Shown here piece by piece: positions 55,174 through 64,000 of a stretch of 64,000 nucleotides of DNA. Position numbers and translations under genes: made by a program. A model generated the notes under the pieces. That model was not told where the DNA came from, did no database searches, and saw nothing but the letters and a program-made list of their open reading frames with translations. Every line of letters starts with the position of its first letter. Position 1 is the first letter of the stretch. This stretch comes from Pseudoxanthomonas kalamensis DSM 18571. GTDB taxonomy: Bacteria; Pseudomonadota; Gammaproteobacteria; Xanthomonadales; Xanthomonadaceae. The stretch is taken from NCBI RefSeq assembly GCF_010211745.1, contig NZ_PDWQ01000004.1:62001-126000 (forward strand), written 5' to 3'.

Positions 55174-56205
55174 TCATGCCGGCTCGCGATGCACGACCAC
55201 CAGCTGGATGGCGCCGCCGCCGCGCCAGTCGTCCGGTTGCAGGCGGTAGGCCAGCCGGCTGCGCGGCGCCGGCCGTTCGCCATCCCAGCCGCCGAAATGG
55301 ATGGCATTGAGCGGCTCGCGGCGCCCTTCGGAACGCAGGCTCAGCTTTAGGTGGCGCTCACCGACCACGCGCCAGTCCAGCACTTCGAACTCGCCGTCGA
55401 ACAGCGGCTCGGGAAAGCCCTGCCCCCACGGCCCGCCATCGCGCAGTGCTTCGGCATGGAAGCGGTCGAATTCCTGCGGCCTGAGTTCGCCATCGCTGAG
55501 TATCTCGGCCTGCAGCAGGCCTTCATCCAGCATGGCTTCCGCCTGCGCGACGAACGCGGTCCGGAATGCCTCCAGATCGTCCAGTTGCAGGCTCAATCCG
55601 GCCGCCATCGCATGCCCACCGAACTTTCCGATCAGACCCGGATGCGCGGCGTCGACCGCCGCCAGCGCGTCACGGATGTGGAAGCCGGGAATGCTGCGGG
55701 CCGAGCCGCGCAAGCTATCCGCGCCCGGTTCGGCCGGGGCAAAGGCGACCGCCGGGCGATGCAGCCGTTCCTTCATCTTCGAGGCGACCAGGCCGACCAC
55801 GCCGGGATGCCATTCCGGATCGAACAGGCATAGCGCCGGCGGTGGCGCATCGTCGGCAACGATCCGCGCCAGCGCCGCTTCGGCTTCGTCGGTCATCTGC
55901 TGCTGCACACCCTGACGCTCGGCGTTGATGCCGTGCAACAGCGCGGCGATTTCGCGGGCGCGAGCCGCGTCATCGCACAGCAGGCACTCGATCCCCAGCG
56001 CCATGTCCTCCAGCCGGCCAGCCGCGTTCAAGCGCGGCGCGATGGCAAAGCCGATGTCGGCGGCGCTCAGGCGTCCTTCCTCGCGCCCTGAAACCTCGAT
56101 CAGCGCGCGCAGCCCGGGGCAGCCACGACCATTGCGCAAGCGGCGCAGGCCGGCGCCGACCAGAGCACGGTTGTTGGCGTCCAGCGGCACCATATCGGCT
56201 AGGGC
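55174..56205 (-). pseudogene. recJ: C-terminal part of single-stranded-DNA exonuclease RecJ (truncated)
   Basis: RecJ homology covers about 344 residues. It starts abruptly at ALADMVPLDANNRALVGAG and runs through GFAIAPRLNAAGRLEDM, GLVASKMKERL, GHAMAAGLSLQ and GPWGQGFPEPLF. The N-terminal DHH half with the metal-binding aspartates is missing. Upstream of about 56205 the frame stays open for 41 more codons, but they show no RecJ similarity. Full RecJ is about 570 residues. The position next to prfB is the usual place of recJ beside the rpf cluster. The fragment is probably inactive. Confidence 0.85.
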
Positions 56206-56469
56206 GCGGCGCCCGTCTGGACACTTTTTCGGTAGCTGTCGAAATTTAGGCAACCTCGCCTGTGGATTCGAAACAGAGCCGAACACTTCAGATATTCCTT
56301 GGGTTGTGCACTTTTGGCCAGGGTCCATCGTGCGAGGAGATGCTAGCTAACAACTTGCACCAACCCTACCAGCCGTGTGACTCCGTCGGAAGCGGACACA
56401 AAACAGACTTCGGCGCAGCCCCCGAGGGGCTGCCGATATCCGCCTGAAAGGAGCAATAAACCCAAGGAT
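56206..56469. other. Breakpoint stretch with changed base composition
   Basis: No gene is supported here. The bases after the recJ break (CGAAATTTAGG and surrounding) look clearly more AT-rich than the flanking genes. I could not match an IS or transposon end with confidence, nor find the other end or a target duplication. Confidence 0.5.
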
Positions 56470-56550
56470 ATGCCTTTAATATCAATTAGTTACTTGATAC
56501 TAGCTGCCATAGTTGCTGCCCTGATTACGTTCGCCAAGGCTCAGGTGTGA
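56470..56550 (+). CDS. Possible small membrane peptide
   Basis: 26 codons, MPLISISYLILAAIVAALITF then AKAQV. It is a single hydrophobic helix with a positive end, the look of a small membrane protein. It lies in the AT-rich stretch. AAGG and AAGGAG lie upstream but at awkward spacing. It overlaps the end of the opposite-strand gene by 26 bp. It could also be chance or a truncated leader of a lost gene. Confidence 0.3.
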   Translation: MPLISISYLILAAIVAALITFAKAQV

Positions 56551-57016
56551 GATCAGACGCTGCGTGATACAGCGGCAGACGATAGGTCCCGAATAGCCGC
56601 CGAAGCCGGCCCCAGTCGCGCCCTAGGAAGAGCCAGCGGAAATCTTCGTCGAATTGAAACTCCGAACGGAATGGATAGGTCGGCCTGTCATTGTCCACTC
56701 CTTCCAGAAGATCGAACCCATCTAGCGCAAGCACGCTGATCGCAGGCGCATCCTTCCGCTTCCGCCTACCCTCAAAGCCACATAGCCGCTCGGTTACCCT
56801 GCCAAGGAGTTCGGCAGGCGCAGGACGCAGATCAATGATCTCCGTCGCAACTCCTCTTGCACCTGCCGCACGCGTAACTGCAGCGAGCACTGCTTTGGCG
56901 CACAAATCGTCTGGGCAAGCCAAAAACGCCGGTGTTCGGAAACTCGGAAACAACGCATGTACGAATTCCGAGGCAACCTGTTCGGCGAGAACTTCACCTT
57001 CGCGTAGCGAGGTCAT
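56525..57016 (-). CDS. Uncharacterised protein paired with SseB-like gene
   Basis: 163 residues, soluble, with no signal peptide and no motif I recognise. LFPSFRTPAFLACPDDLCAKAVLAAVTRA lies near the N terminus, and FDEDFRWLFLGRDWGRLRRLFGTYRLPLYH near the C terminus. Its ATG follows the SseB-like stop by one base step (TAA then ATG), so the two are translated together. The gene's stop is the first CDS boundary after the recJ break. Confidence 0.65.
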   Translation of the reverse strand: MTSLREGEVLAEQVASEFVHALFPSFRTPAFLACPDDLCAKAVLAAVTRAAGARGVATEIIDLRPAPAELLGRVTERLCGFEGRRKRKDAPAISVLALDGFDLLEGVDNDRPTYPFRSEFQFDEDFRWLFLGRDWGRLRRLFGTYRLPLYHAASDLTPEPWRT

Positions 57017-57775
57017 TTACTGCAGCCCCTGCGGACCAAGACCTATCCGCTCGCCCATGGCGCGCACATAGAACGGTTCGAGGCTGGCATCCTTTAACCA
57101 ACCCGGGAGATCACCAGGCTCAAAAGCAGTCAGGTCGACGGTGGTTCGAAGCGCTCGGCAGTGCGGCTGCAATTCCGTCGTAGTGGCACGGGCGACACGC
57201 TCGGCATCTTTCGCTGGCACAGAGACGGCAACCAACAGTCCTCGCTGTTCGGAGCCATAGGGCGCACCGATGCCAGCCAGATAAGCCGCCTCGACACAAT
57301 CCAGACCCGCGTAGAGCGCAATCAACCGGTCGACTAACCAAGTAGGCCAATCGCTGGAAGCCCCTATCCAAAGCTGCTGACCGCCCGTGTCGATCCGCTC
57401 GACGATGGCCACCTCTCCATGATCGAGCAGCGCAGCGATTTCTTCGGGATACAGCGTACAACCTACCTCGTTTGGGTTGAGCATCAGTGTCGCACCCCGT
57501 GTCCATTCGAATAGTTGACGTCCGGTTAGCACCAAGACAGTCGCTGCAGACCCGGCCGCTGTTCTGGCCTGCGATTCTTCGGTGAAGAATGGCAACACGG
57601 TCAGACCTTCGGGCGTTGTGAACTGGATGAAGCGCAGACGTTCACCACGACGACCACTGCGTGGCGTGTGAGCGTAGACCGTTGCATCCAGCAGCGCACG
57701 GAAAAAGGCCGGTTCCGCCGACTTGTCGGCGAGTGCCTCATGCATCAGCCTGGCGAGTTCGTCTGCAGGAATCAC
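57017..57775 (-). CDS. SseB family protein
   Basis: 252 residues from a GTG start. The N-terminal SseB fold is visible as AFFRALLDATVYAHTP, IQFTTPEGLTVLPFFTEESQA and MLNPNEVGCTLYPEEIAALL. The C-terminal SseB_C-like part has ALYAGLDCVEAAYLAGI. E. coli SseB is linked to serine sensitivity; members also occur in toxin immunity-like settings. It pairs with an unknown gene. A 13-bp inverted repeat lies 17 bp upstream of its start. Confidence 0.8.
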   Translation of the reverse strand: MIPADELARLMHEALADKSAEPAFFRALLDATVYAHTPRSGRRGERLRFIQFTTPEGLTVLPFFTEESQARTAAGSAATVLVLTGRQLFEWTRGATLMLNPNEVGCTLYPEEIAALLDHGEVAIVERIDTGGQQLWIGASSDWPTWLVDRLIALYAGLDCVEAAYLAGIGAPYGSEQRGLLVAVSVPAKDAERVARATTTELQPHCRALRTTVDLTAFEPGDLPGWLKDASLEPFYVRAMGERIGLGPQGLQ

Positions 57776-57902: not shown

Positions 57903-58304
57903 CTACTTGCGCACTATTTTGGTGATGGTGCCATCCATACCGGTCGAGGTGAGCTCGAAGTTAACCTGATCGCCCTGCTTCAGGGCGGTCAGGTCCACCT
58001 CGGGCGCCTTGAAGGTCATGGTCATCGCCGGCCACTTCAGAGCATCGATTGGTCCATGAGCGATCGTGATCGTCTTCGCAGCGGTGTCGACCGCCTCGAC
58101 CGTGCCGCTGGCCGACGCCATGGTAGCCGCCGATGCCATTTCCGGCATGGGCATCGATTCGTTGGAAGCTGATGCCGCCGTGGATGCTTTCGATTCTGCA
58201 GGCATTTCCGCATGATTCGTCGACGCGGGGGCATTCGCATCCCCCGAAGGCGACGAGCAGGCGGTCAGCAGTGCAAGGGTGAGTACGAGGGTGGGCATTT
58301 TCAT
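57903..58304 (-). CDS. cusF: CusF-like periplasmic copper/silver chaperone
   Basis: 133 residues. A lipoprotein-like signal ends in LLTACSS, followed by a Met- and Ala-rich linker. The C-terminal CusF domain has HGPIDALKWPAMTMTF with His, Trp, Met and Met in the spacing of E. coli CusF metal ligands. It passes Cu(I) or Ag(I) to CusB. It is the last gene of the leftward cus group. Confidence 0.88.
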   Translation of the reverse strand: MKMPTLVLTLALLTACSSPSGDANAPASTNHAEMPAESKASTAASASNESMPMPEMASAATMASASGTVEAVDTAAKTITIAHGPIDALKWPAMTMTFKAPEVDLTALKQGDQVNFELTSTGMDGTITKIVRK

Positions 58305-58383: not shown

Positions 58384-58749
58384 TCAGCAAGGGCAATTGC
58401 GGTCGCCCTCTTGTGTAGCAGCGGTCCTATCCGTGGTGATGACGCGGTCGTAGCGCTTCGCGGCGCCATCCACCAGTTCAGCGGTCACACACGAGTCCTC
58501 GGTGACGGTGACGCGTGCGTGGCCGATGGTTTTGTATAGCGTGGCACCGCTGCTCTTGTAGGGGACGAAGCCGCGCTGGATCGCCAGCGACGTGCCGACA
58601 TCCGGTGCCGGCGTGTGCTTGAAGCACACCTGGAGCTGATGATCGGCGATCTGGTGGACCGAGCCGACTGGGGCTCGCTCACGCGGCGCGGCCGCAGCAG
58701 CGATCGGGAGCAGCAGGCTGATGGCGAGCGATGTTAGATGCAGTTTCAT
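58384..58749 (-). CDS. Exported protein of unknown function in cus cluster
   Basis: 121 residues from the ATG at 58749. A signal peptide (about 1-20, PIAAAAAP) precedes a small domain with Cys in LQVCFKH and DSCVTAELVDG, ending in CPC. The Cys could bind metal. It lies between cusA and cusF in the same direction. Function unknown, but the place suggests metal handling. Confidence 0.7.
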   Translation of the reverse strand: MKLHLTSLAISLLLPIAAAAAPRERAPVGSVHQIADHQLQVCFKHTPAPDVGTSLAIQRGFVPYKSSGATLYKTIGHARVTVTEDSCVTAELVDGAAKRYDRVITTDRTAATQEGDRNCPC

Positions 58750-58816
58750 GGGAACCTCCTGATAAGTCAGAGGGAGTGGCACGCCGGGCACCAAACGGGG
58801 CGCTCGCCGTGGCCGG

Positions 58817-61800
58817 TCATGTCGGCAACGCCGACGAAGAAAGTGAGCTGGGACGTGATTGGCGTGATCGCCGCAAGCGACGCCGCTGCAGCAACCGGTA
58901 CGCGGCCGGAATCACGAGCATCGAGAGCAACGGCGCACTGAGCATGCCGCCGACCATCGGCGCAGCAATGCGCTGCATGACTTCCGAGCCGGCGCCGCTT
59001 CCGATCAGGATCGGGAACAGACCGGCCAGGATCACGGCTACGGTCATCGCCTTTGGTCGCACGCGTTGCACGGCGCCTTCGCGGATCGCGGCGTCGAGTT
59101 CCGCCTCGCCCGCGCTCGGATTCGCGGCGAGTTGGCGTTCCCACGCGTGGCGCAGGTACAGCAACATGATGATGCCGAACTCGGCGGCGACGCCGGCCAG
59201 GGCGATGAAGCCGATCAGCGTGGCGACCGATACGGCATGGCCCATGCCCCAGATCAGCCACAAGCCCCCGACCAATGCGAGTGGCAGGCTGAGCATGATG
59301 ATCGCGGCCTCCGACACGCGTCGAAACACCAAGTAAATCAGGCCGAAGATGATTACCAACGTCGCGGGAACCACCACGCGCAGCCGCTCACTGGCACGTT
59401 TGAGGTACTCGTACTGGCCGGACCAACCCACGGCGTATCCGGCTGGCATCGGCACCTGCTTTGCGACCGCACGTTGCAGATCGGTCACCACCGAGCCGAG
59501 ATCGCGTCCAGCCACATCCACGTAAACATAATTGCTGAGGCGAGCGTTATCGCTGCGCAACATCGGCGGGCCTTCGCTGAAGCTCAGCTCGGCGACCTGT
59601 CCCAACGTCAGCTGCACACCACTTGGCGCGAGCAAAGGCAACTGCGCGAGTGCGGCCGGCGAGTCGCGGATCGTGCGTGGATAGCGCACCACCACCGGGT
59701 AGCGTTCGCGGCCCTGGATGGTCTCCGCGACCGGTTCTCCACCCACCACCGTCGCAATCAACCGCTGCACATCGGCCTGGCTTAAGCCGTACCGGGCGGC
59801 CATATCGGGCCGCACCTTCACGTCGATGTAGCGACCACCCGCGATGCGTTCGGCCAGCGCCGAACTCACGCCGGGCACGGTGCGTGCAACCCGTTCGATG
59901 CGATCGCTCAACTGCGCCAGCACCGCAACGTCGGGCCCCGAGACCTTGATGCCGATCGGGCTCTTGATGCCGGTGGCCAGCATGTCGATGCGGTTGCGGA
60001 TGGGCGGCACGAACAGGTTCGTCAGCCCCGGCACCTTGACTGCGCGGTCAAGTTCCTCGCGCAGCTTCTCGGGTGTCATCCCCGGCCGCCATTGGCTGCG
60101 CGGCTTGAAGGTGATCGTCGTCTCGAACATCTCCAGCGGTGCCGGGTCGGTGGCGGTCTCAGCCCGGCCCGCCTTGCCAAACACGTGGTCCACTTCGGGC
60201 ACGGTCTTGAGCATGCGGTCAGTCTGTTGCAGCAACTGCGATGCCTTGCCAGCAGACAAGCCGGGCAATGCCGATGGCATGTATAGCAGCGTGCCTTCCT
60301 CCAGGGGCGGCATGAACTCACTGCCAAGACGTAAGAGCGGAATCAGGCTAACCAGCAGCACGACACCGGCCAGCGCCAATGTCAGTTTCGGGAAACGCAG
60401 CACTGCATCCAGCACCGGCCGATACAGCGCGATCAGGATGCGATTGAGCGGGTTGTCTTTCTCGGATCGGATATGGCCGCGGATCAGGTAGCCCATCAGT
60501 ACCGGAATCAGGGTGATGGACAGGCCCGCCGCAGCGGCCATGGCATAAGTCTTGGTGTAGGCCAGCGGTGAGAACAACCGTCCTTCCTGCGCCTGCAAGG
60601 CGAACACCGGCACGAACGACAGCGTGATCACCAGCAGACTGACGAACAGCGCCGGACCGACCTCGCTGGCGGAAACCGCCATCAGCTCCCAGCGCTCGGC
60701 GCCCTCGGGTTCACGGTGGTGCTCGTCGCGGAAATGCTCGAGGTGCTTGTGCGCGTTCTCGATCATCACCACCGCGGCATCGACCATCGCGCCAATCGCG
60801 ATCGCGATGCCACCGAGCGATAGCAGGTTCGCGGTGATGCCCTGCATGTGCATGACGATGAAGGCCGCGAGCACGCCCAAGGGCAAGGTGATCACCGCCA
60901 CCAAGGAGGAGCGTACGTGCCACAGGAACAGCGCACACACCAGGGCGACGACAAGGAATTCCTCGCCGAGCTTGCGAGTGAGGTTGCGCACGGCTTCGAG
61001 GATCAATTCGGAGCGGTCATAGGTCGGCACGATTTCGACACCGGCCGGCAGGCTTCCCTTCAGGTCCTGCAGCTTGGCCTTGACGGCTTCGATCGCGGCC
61101 AAAGCGTTCTTGCCCGAACGCAGAATGATCACGCCGCCGGCGACTTCGCCTTCGCCATCGAGTTCGGTGATGCCGCGGCGCAAGGCCGGTCCGCGTTGCA
61201 CCATCGCCACATCCTGCAGTAGCACCGGCACGCCGTCGTTGCCGGTCGTCACAGGGACGCGCTCGAAATCGGCGCGCGTACGCAGATAGCCTTCGCTGCG
61301 TACCATGAACTCGGCTTCGCCCTGCTCGATCACCGAGCCGCCAGTGGCGCCGTTGGCGGACTGAATGGCTTCGACGAGTTGGTTGATGGTGAGGCCGCGC
61401 GCCGCCAGCGCCTGCGGATTTGGCACGATTTGCCAGGCTTGGACCATGCCGCCGACGCTTGCGACTTCGGCCACGTCGGGCACGGTCTTGAGGTCGTAGC
61501 GCAGAAACCAGTCCTGTAAGGCGCGCAGCTGCCCCAGGTCGTGCTTGCCGGTGCGATCGACGAGCGCGTACTCATAGATCCAGCCAAGACCCGTGGCATC
61601 CGGCCCGATCGCCGGACTGACCTGCGCCGGCAAGCGATCACGTACCTGGCTCAGATACTCGAGCACGCGCGAGCGTGCCCAGTACAAGTCGGTCTTGTCG
61701 TCGAACAGCACGTAGACGAACGAGTCGCCGAAGAACGAGAAGCCACGCACCGCCTTGACGCCCGGCACCGACAGCATCGTTGTGGTCAAGGGATAGGTGA

Positions 61801-61993
61801 CCTGGTCTTCGACGATGCGCGGCGTCTGCCCGGGCCATTCGGTGCGGATGATGACCTGCGTATCCGACAGGTCGGGCAAGGCATCGAGCGGCGTGTGCAA
61901 TACCGACCAGATGCCGGCCGCTGCCAGCGCAATGGCAGCCACCAGCACAAATAGCCGGTTAGCGATAGAGGCGCGAATGATGCGGGCGATCAT
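58817..61993 (-). CDS. cusA: Heavy-metal efflux RND transporter CusA/CzcA family
   Basis: 1058 residues. The RND permease has two six-helix repeats and large periplasmic loops. [33 protein letters not shown] is a CusA start, [27 protein letters not shown] the CusA central loop, and [22 protein letters not shown] follows. It uses the proton gradient to pump Cu(I) or Ag(I) from the periplasm with CusB and CusC. Its ATG overlaps the CusB stop in ATGA. Confidence 0.95.
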
Positions 61994-63537
61994 GGCTGCC
62001 GTCCCGCCGCAGGCACATCACGAATGGTGCAATCCGGGTTCGCCTCGGGCGCGAACTTGGGCACCAACTGCATGTCCATGTAGGGCGACTTGCCGGGTTT
62101 GTCGAAGTGCTTGTCCGGCACCATCGGGTCATACCAATAGGTCACTGGGCATTGCCGTGCCTTGGGTGACGCGGTGACCGCTGGTGTTGCAACGGCTGGG
62201 GGCGCCTTCTTCTTGGGCGGTACTACGGGTGGCGCCGGGCGCGCGGGCGCAGCCTGCGGCGGCATCGCCATGTCTGGCATACCGGGCATGACATCGCTCG
62301 GCATGTTCGCTTCTTCATCACCCGCACCGGCATTGAGGCGTTCGAGTGCGCCTGACAGGTTCGCTTCGGAATCGATCAGGAACTGCCCCGAGGCCACCAC
62401 CTTCTCGCCACCTTTCAGCCCCGCGAGAATTTCAGTCATGCCGTCACCACTGCGACCGGTCTGCACGCGCACGGGATGGAACATGTCGTCGGCGCCGAGC
62501 ACGATCACGCGAGCCTGCGCACCCGCTCCGATCAACGCGTCCGTCGGTACCAGCGGCCGTTCGATACTCGCAGTTGGCTGCAAGGTGATCTGCGCGAACA
62601 TGCCCGGTGCCAGGAGACCGTCCGGGTTGTCCAGAACGATGCGGGCCCGTTGGGTGCGGCTACTCATGTCCACTTGCGGCAGCAAGGTTTCCACGCGGCC
62701 GTGGAAGGCCTCGCCTGGCAATGCGTCGACAGCCGCTTCCACCAACGTACCCGTCGCGATGCCCGCAGTGCCCGCTTGCGGAATCGACGCTTCGAGCCAG
62801 ACCGTCCGGGTACCGTTGACGCGGAACAGCAGCGTGCCTATCGGCGCCGACTGCCCTTCGCGCACGCCGATTTCGCTGACGACGCCGGTCACGGGTGAGG
62901 TCAAGGTGAGTCGTCCGCGCTGCCCCGCACCACTGCCCGCGGGCAGACCCAACGCACGCAACCGTTCGTGGGCGGCGGATTGCAAACCTCGTGCGGCGGC
63001 GGAGCGAGCTCCACCTAACGCTCGCGCTTCGGCAATCGCAGTGTTCCAACTTGGCGCGATGATGCTGGCCAGGGGTTGCCCCGCGCGCACCGGCTCAAAC
63101 GGGGCACGCACGTGCAAGCGCTCGACGATGGCGTCGACTCGCGCACTGACGATGCGTTCCTGACGCAGGTCCCAGCCAATGGTGCCCGGCACGCGGACGG
63201 CTGCCGTCAGTCGGCCAGGCTTGACCACCACCGTGCGGATGCCGAGGTTCTGGCGCACGCCCGGTGCAACGGCAACGCCGCCGGCCGTCGCCTCGTCGGC
63301 GTACTTCGGCACCAGTTGCATGTCCATGAAGGGCGACTTGCCAGGCTTGTCGAAGTGTTGGTCGGGCACCATCGGGTCGTACCAATAGAGCGCCTTGCGT
63401 TCGGCGGACTGCGGGCTCGAGGTGTCGGCGGCGGATGAACTCCCGTGAGTGCGCCCCCACCAGTAACCGAGGCCGACGGCGGCCACCAGCGCAAGGGAAA
63501 CAGCAGCAGTGACCACGCTGCGACGAGTGGTATTCAT
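61990..63537 (-). CDS. cusB: RND periplasmic adaptor CusB with two heavy-metal-binding motifs
   Basis: 515 residues. A signal anchor at about 9-27 precedes a first heavy-metal-binding segment (about 50-79: [19 protein letters not shown]). The adaptor core follows, with lipoyl, barrel and alpha-hairpin parts. A second, nearly identical segment lies at about 463-503 ([20 protein letters not shown]). This duplication, one copy at each end, is unusual. It links CusA to the outer membrane channel CusC. It overlaps both neighbours. Confidence 0.9.
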
Positions 63538-64000
63538 GGCTGCATCTCCGAGGGCAACAGGAAGGCCAGCGCGGCCCAGGCACGTCCGAGTTCACCCAGG
63601 TGTTCGGCGTGCGCGAGGTGCACATCGAGTTCGTCACGTCTGGCGTTGAGCCACGGCTGCAGTTCGCCGCCGGCGCGATACGCGGCGAGCGTCGTCGCAC
63701 TGCGGTCCTGCGCGAGCGGCAACAGGGAGTGCTCATGCAGGGCGACCTGGCGCTTCAGCCCTTCCCATCGAGCGAGATCCGCGCGAATGCGCGCCGCTTC
63801 CTGGCGACGCAGGTCTTCGCGGGTCGCCAACGCGGCCTGATAGTCCGCTTCCCGGGCTGCGATGCCACGATCCTGCCGGTTACGCGAGAACAGCGGCAAG
63901 CCGATGCCCACTTCGAACATGATCATGTCGCTGCGACCACCGGCACGCTGGCCATAGGACGCACCCACGCTCCAGTCCGGATGCTTGTCGGCGCGGGCGA
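63534..64000 (-). CDS. CusC/TolC-family outer membrane efflux protein (N-terminal part beyond window)
   Basis: About 155 residues of the C-terminal half are present. Coiled-coil helices follow VGIGLPLFSRNRQDRGIAAREADYQAALATREDLRRQEAARIRADL, and RSATTLAAYRAGGELQPWLNARRDELD matches TolC-type channels of Cus/Czc systems. Its stop overlaps the CusB start, so it is the first of three coupled genes. The rest lies past the window edge. Confidence 0.88.
   Translation of the reverse strand, partial: ARADKHPDWSVGASYGQRAGGRSDMIMFEVGIGLPLFSRNRQDRGIAAREADYQAALATREDLRRQEAARIRADLARWEGLKRQVALHEHSLLPLAQDRSATTLAAYRAGGELQPWLNARRDELDVHLAHAEHLGELGRAWAALAFLLPSEMQP

Follow-up and report, generated by a model that had tools for sequence, protein, structure and literature searches.

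An integrative island splits recJ in Pseudoxanthomonas kalamensis and probably brings a substitute RecJ-family gene

The native recJ gene of Pseudoxanthomonas kalamensis DSM 18571 is split into two halves, which are separated by an insert of 50,430 bp on the same contig. The insert is a genomic island that carries a complete, divergent RecJ-family gene, here termed recJe (protein RecJe). We give a probability of roughly 80% to the reading that an island of the GInt type has cut recJ and brings its own replacement; as judged from the sequence, RecJe would be active, transcribed and able to complement the broken gene, and the island would be mobile. RecJ would then have been exchanged in this cell, which is more probable than its loss. 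The window, i.e., the whole stretch of DNA that was analysed, comprises 64,000 nucleotides of contig NZ_PDWQ01000004.1 (positions 62,001 to 126,000 of the forward strand). Contig coordinates are given with the prefix C105 and equal the window position plus 62000 (window = C105:62001-126000). The genome (RefSeq assembly GCF_010211745.1) is a 3.03-Mb draft of 160 contigs and 99.98% complete.

The C-terminal part of recJ lies on the minus strand at window positions 55174-56199 and comprises the DHHA1 and OB domains without DHH. It belongs to an open reading frame (ORF) of 384 amino acids (55174-56328), which RecJ models match only from position 211 (TIGR00644) or 234 (PRK11070), and which consists of island sequence beyond 56199, up to 56328. 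The end of RecJ similarity at the residues ALADMVPLD, noticed in the original prediction from the sequence alone, is confirmed on the minus strand by the family models. The same prediction placed the DHH core in the missing half, and this half is indeed present: a genome-wide search for the RecJ family returned three matches, all on the 408-kb contig C105, one of which (C105:168627-169259, model positions 3-214) holds the DHH domain and represents the N-terminal half, running from C105:168630. The surroundings of recJ are intact at the break, since an M48 peptidase gene adjoins the C-terminal half, and the gene upstream of the N-terminal half stands just upstream of recJ in 31 of 40 loci tested. 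Neither the DHH half nor the DHHA1/OB half would be expected to work alone.

The insert spans C105:118200-168629 and runs in the same direction as recJ. Read in the recJ sense, the N-terminal half ends with ...GGTCGCCGAC followed by TTAGG..., and the C-terminal half resumes after ...CCTA with GCCGATATGGTG.... The halves share a 6-bp core, GCCGAC at the left junction and GCCGAT at the right junction (56194-56199, minus strand), and no recJ sequence is missing, because intact recJ genes of the genus run uninterrupted through the site: the motif GCNGAY-CT-SGT, retrieved with a typed degenerate pattern, is continuous in all 19 genes printed. The core corresponds to the Ala-Asp codons of a conserved GT-x-AD motif in RecJ, the Asp of which aligns with D221 of Tth RecJ, a residue that we take to be a metal ligand. 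Inside the cores, the island ends are imperfect inverted copies of each other with 12 bp in common (TCTGGACACTTT). The right end (56200-56229) opens the AT-rich 3' end of the island (56200-56549), where the GC content over 350 bp is 0.531, lower than the 0.697 of the recJ part and the 0.643 of the cargo. The AT-rich stretch that had been described beyond the break is thus real, and the accessory genes said to follow it are found as cargo ORFs, which run to the window end. Given the presence of the missing half on the same contig, the 6-bp core at the junction and the same split in other species (the comparison with relatives that had been suggested as a check), recJ is truncated at an island edge, and the truncation is beyond chance or assembly error. 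No tRNA was detected as a target in the four stretches scanned.

Apart from the gene for RecJe (C105:161214-162980, with the family match at C105:161232-162845), no complete member of the RecJ family was found in the genome. The protein is 36% identical to the N-terminal and 32% identical to the C-terminal native half, and its DHH and RecJ_OB domains score above the Pfam cut-offs. RecJe retains the six residues that align with the catalytic D82, D84, D136, H160, H161 and D221 of Tth RecJ, and these residues are invariant among four RecJe proteins as well as among six RecJe and four accessory proteins. The gene is under purifying selection, with dN/dS values of 0.099 (P. kalamensis and Pseudoxanthomonas sangjuensis) and 0.106 (genome G406 and locus L092, both introduced below). 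RecJe probably works like RecJ. The loss of RecJ, with reliance on other exonucleases, that had been predicted for this strain is not the best reading, as the island carries a complete divergent RecJ-family gene.

The genes that accompany recJe form a recombinase module. Four genes adjoin the N-terminal recJ half on the same strand, touching or overlapping each other, and code for proteins of 410, 531, 719 and 168 amino acids (ginABCD). The 410-residue protein matches Phage_integrase above the Pfam cut-off and the 531-residue protein just below it; the 719-residue protein has no Pfam integrase match and shows integrase-like conserved residues in an alignment. The residues invariant in an alignment of seven such trios are R222, R349 and Y384 in GinA, R362 and Y394 in GinB, and R223, H533, R536 and Y568 in GinC. 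Together, ginABCD and recJe occupy C105:161214-168432, outside the window, and recJe is the fifth gene of the operon, its start overlapping the ginD stop by ATGA. It is probably co-transcribed with the gin genes, and probably also read from the native promoter of recJ, a promoter that would now lie upstream of ginA. 

Judged by its anatomy, the island is of the GInt (Tn6571 family) type. It has four collinear genes at one end, three of which are tyrosine-recombinase-like, the cargo begins at the ginD stop, the other end is AT-rich, and insertion is site-specific. Moreover, GinB is related to the second integrase of trios located directly behind ssb, the end of which is a published GInt site, with expectation values of 1e-12 (Escherichia coli plasmids) and 2e-12 (Pseudomonas aeruginosa plasmids) and an identity of 22-27% over part of the length. 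A passage of PMC10121019 defines homology to known GInt integrases by a value below 1e-5 plus the gene layout. Two features set the island apart: the target is cut in the middle rather than at the end of the gene, and a RecJ-family gene stands fifth in the operon. The GInt authors, in the portion of PMC5385486 drawn on here, consider that insertion probably does not wholly inactivate the targets. A second class, the strand-biased circularizing integrative elements (SEs), also features a four-gene tyrosine-recombinase module, imperfect inverted ends and a 6-bp core; their borders are given as imperfect inverted terminal repeats of 13-19 bp with a 6-bp spacer, and SE and GInt proteins are reported as separate clusters (all in PMC10214605). 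The Gamma-mobile-trio was considered and set aside; the four module proteins lack an NCBIfam match to such a family. Scans of viral contigs with RecJe and GinB, bearing on a phage origin, gave no confirmed relative. Like GInts, the island may be capable of excision as a circle, and it may be mobile at present.

The RecJe clade was found in seven genomes, and native recJ is broken in each of them. Besides P. kalamensis (G000), these are P. sacheonensis DSM 19373 (G325, L089), P. sangjuensis DSM 28345 (G002, L090), G406 with its 4.2-Mb contig, and the metagenome-assembled genomes (MAGs) Bin_66_1 (G037, L093), RIFCSPHIGHO2_12_FULL_63_22 (G416, L092) and YP1.bin44 (G415, L091). The break falls at model position ~214 in G000, G325, G002 and G037, and at ~266 in G406 and G416. 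In these six genomes recJe lies directly behind a four-gene module; both halves and recJe are on a single contig in four of them (G000, G325, G037, G406), and the halves are on separate contigs in G002 and G416. The islands of P. kalamensis and P. sacheonensis are 99.3% identical in an alignment of 51.9 kb, part of which is flank, and do not differ at all in RecJe and ginA, while the DNA identity of the flanking recJ halves is 71% (N) and 76% (C). A near-identical island between divergent halves suggests that the same island entered both species not long ago and broke the recJ of each separately.

In a sample of 397 genomes from the order, the RecJe clade is present in at least four (G000, G325, G037, G406), and 12 gave no recJ match. 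Two or more recJ matches were found in 23 genomes, among the matches listed, and 18 of these were re-examined; set aside were G166, G171, G190, G195 and G209, as well as low-scoring single matches such as G075, G140, G194 and G205. In 8 of the 26 genomes examined at this stage (G278, G284, G320, G351, G367, G373, G386, G402), one gene over the cut-off had been reported as two pieces. The scan of genome contigs used exact short peptide patterns, by which near relatives can be missed, and its five loci are a lower bound.

The islands employ two types of modules. The module of G406 and G416 follows the same plan (429, 634, 722 and 173 amino acids), and a comparison by tblastn of the G406-type and G000-type modules gave no meaningful match. 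In a comparison of profiles, the first genes are related (hhalign probability 92.8), and the other 15 pairings stay below 25; smaller alignments likewise related only the first genes. The G406-type module could be either SE or GInt. The RecJe proteins of G406 and G000 are 63% identical, and thus two recJ sites and two module types have one RecJe clade in common. In a midpoint-rooted RecJ tree of 37 rows (18 native, 6 island and 13 accessory proteins), the island RecJs form one group (100/100). Within this group, the RecJ of G037 is outermost (99/96) despite a G000-type module and site, and those of G406 and G416 are nearer to that of G000. As the histories of RecJe and the modules disagree, the spare was passed between modules or recruited more than once.

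Related modules at other sites serve as a control. A G000-type GinB is found in 5 of the 397 genomes; in G000, G325 and G037 it lies inside recJ together with RecJe. In the other two (G254, G266), where ginA is 45-49% identical to that of G000, the module follows the 3' end of a gene that neighbours a ribonucleotide reductase (nrdJ-associated; TSCPD domain in G266, the G254 counterpart recognised by eye), a harmless site. Both genomes have an intact recJ, and no second RecJ was found in either. Similarly, ginABCD is present on three plasmids with no RecJ among the neighbours listed. From these cases, RecJe does not appear to be a standard component of the recombination machinery; it accompanies the breaking of recJ. 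In a class-wide scan of 369 genomes, in which empty results prove no absence, the profile of the G000-type GinC had a single match (G000 itself) and the G406-type third gene had none, and no absence is claimed.

RecJe has relatives on plasmids. Accessory RecJs, annotated as "DHH family phosphoesterase" in Xanthomonas, Rhodanobacter, Dyella and others, group with the island proteins in 11 of 13 cases tested, set apart from native RecJs by a branch with support of 100/100, and 7 of these 11 come from plasmid records. In total, 35 plasmid records match RecJe, all below 60% identity. In 22 of the 35 records, which include L103 and L108, the RecJ-family gene lies on a Xanthomonas plasmid of ~190-310 kb, and in two cases genes for HU and RdgC were seen nearby. 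In stretches from G026, G333, G286 and G036, which were searched for G000-type gin genes, no match was found. As a separate observation, G036 (C1:418347-419912) and G048 (C14:84712-86277), members of one family of the order, have an accessory-type RecJ only, with no native match, and G025, of the same genus and listed as 100% complete, has no RecJ match; these genomes possibly represent another displacement or loss of RecJ.

In the MAG G415, RecJe follows, at a distance of ~0.5 kb, the gene usually found just ahead of recJ. The recJ remnant is on another contig; only C-side fragments from model position 265 were found, and they contain a stop and a break of the reading frame. A search with 44 module proteins revealed no gin gene in 12 kb around RecJe or in 8 kb around the remnant. 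Bearing in mind that the genome is a MAG, we read G415 as a candidate case of completed replacement of recJ by RecJe.

Several explanations compete with a replacement brought by the island. A break created by assembly or binning might be suspected in a draft of 160 contigs; this is hardly credible, as P. sacheonensis (400 kb) and G037 each show, on one contig, recJ split at this site with the genes in this order, an equivalent split at the other site lies within the 4.2-Mb contig of G406, and the recJ halves on either side vary from species to species, in contrast to the near-identical island of G000 and G325. A plain loss of RecJ, for which the split gene speaks and which an insertion sequence-like break in genome G313 shows to be tolerable, is very improbable in the face of a complete RecJ-family gene under purifying selection in the same island.

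The remaining rivals accept RecJe and dispute its tie to the broken gene. RecJe could be ordinary plasmid-derived cargo that happens to travel in recJ-targeting islands, considering that its closest relatives are accessory RecJs, many of them on plasmids and coexisting with an intact native recJ. Ordinary cargo would not be expected to stand immediately behind the module in every one of the six genomes that have one, nor to form one clade across two module types with native recJ broken in seven of seven genomes, and we regard this explanation as quite improbable. Less easily dismissed, though still unlikely, is the notion that RecJe helps the movement or DNA processing of the island itself and is tied to the broken recJ only incidentally. 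Its position as fifth gene of the recombinase operon, overlapping ginD, and its company with two module types would fit such a helper; yet the related modules in G254 and G266 stand in genomes without RecJe, the three plasmid-borne ginABCD sets have no RecJ among the neighbours listed, and G415, where the stretches examined revealed no gin gene, retains RecJe.

A number of observations also weigh against the replacement of recJ by a GInt-type island. RecJe scores 332.9 bits (model positions 19-544), below the TIGR00644 equivalog cut-off of 396.9, and is therefore called a divergent RecJ-family protein; its DHHA1 domain scores 24.9, just under the Pfam cut-off of 25.9. Of the two genes that the original prediction proposed to look for, the N-terminal half was found beyond the 50-kb insert; the complete RecJ-family gene of the island largely answers to the second intact recJ that would refute the predicted loss, although it falls below this cut-off. 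Scanning the surroundings of ginA for a promoter yielded no site. In its catalytic residues, the third gene departs from the published description of GInts, which gives RHRHY for GinA and GinB and no first R for GinC; GinC seems to retain the first R, and the His of GinB is not conserved across the seven aligned trios. The border repeat has a clear core of only 6 nt (GCCGAC/GCCGAT), shorter than the imperfect direct repeats of 10-17 nt reported for GInts, and fits the 6-nt staggered cut described with them in part of PMC5385486. The control of related modules is small (three versus two). The accessory RecJs of the wider clade, where checked (G026, G333, G286), differ from RecJe in standing beside an intact native recJ, and G415 is a MAG without a recombinase module in the stretches examined. 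Finally, recJ of G313 is cut at ~codon 175 without RecJe. The break lies at two contig ends (C63, C43; L119, L120), which have the same outward motif and 8-9 bp of flank in common and were read by eye as an insertion sequence. RecJ can therefore be lost in the family, and its replacement is a benefit rather than a proven need.

The cargo of the island is largely metal resistance, among the cargo ORFs scanned. The inventory includes two CusA/CzcA pumps, CusB-like and CusF-like proteins, a heavy-metal P-type ATPase, a copper-resistance multicopper oxidase, ArsJ and an EfeU-like transporter, and in addition an SseB-like gene and NAD synthase. According to the ORF list and family scans, the part within the window, all on the minus strand, starts with an ORF of 163 amino acids without a family match (56525-57016), followed by the SseB-like gene (57017-57775; N-terminal domain over the Pfam cut-off), a CusF-like copper-binding protein (57903-58304), an ORF of 136 amino acids without a family match (58384-58794), a CusA/CzcA-family metal efflux pump (58817-61993) and a CusB-like adaptor (61990-63537). 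The visible portion of a further ORF (63534-64000) runs out of the window, and the island continues to C105:168629. The NAD synthase gene (C105:142929-144575) is odd among metal-resistance genes. The island of G406 contains an ORF of 247 amino acids (L075:12098-12841), which by eye is similar to the SseB-like gene.

We favour a replacement of recJ by a GInt-type island along the following lines. Tyrosine recombinases would integrate the island site-specifically at the GT-x-A-D codons of recJ, so that the DHH domain comes to lie in one piece of the gene and the DHHA1 and OB domains in the other. RecJe, encoded directly behind the recombinase genes, would supply the lost RecJ activity, and thus, the island would pay for the broken gene and become hard to lose. 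Beyond the single strain, we lean, with less assurance, towards a broader view: at least twice, integrative islands on modules without a detectable relation beyond one integrase may have come to target conserved motifs of recJ. They could aim inside the gene because the plasmid-type spare RecJ they carry takes the harm out of the insertion and renders the island indispensable. At least one lineage, represented by MAG G415, would have ended with the spare in the place of recJ and the native gene decaying, which would amount to an island-driven displacement of a housekeeping gene.

In searches of the open-licence PMC literature, none of the papers listed describes an island of this kind that targets recJ, or a whole replacement gene carried by one. 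An annotated "truncated recJ" need not mean a RecJ-negative cell. Targeting a conserved protein motif would make a site available in most relatives, and a spare gene would remove the cost of insertion and penalise the loss of the island; this offers a testable route by which mobile elements replace housekeeping genes. Close parallels are the dusA-specific islands and SXT (inserted in prfC), integrative elements which, as described in a part of PMC8409611, likewise make good what they break, supplying the target gene with a promoter and an N-terminus. The site-specific elements compared here spare their targets by using gene ends or by restoring the broken end. In contrast, the recJ island cuts a DNA-repair gene in the middle and appears to bring a whole substitute, a separate gene of another RecJ lineage.
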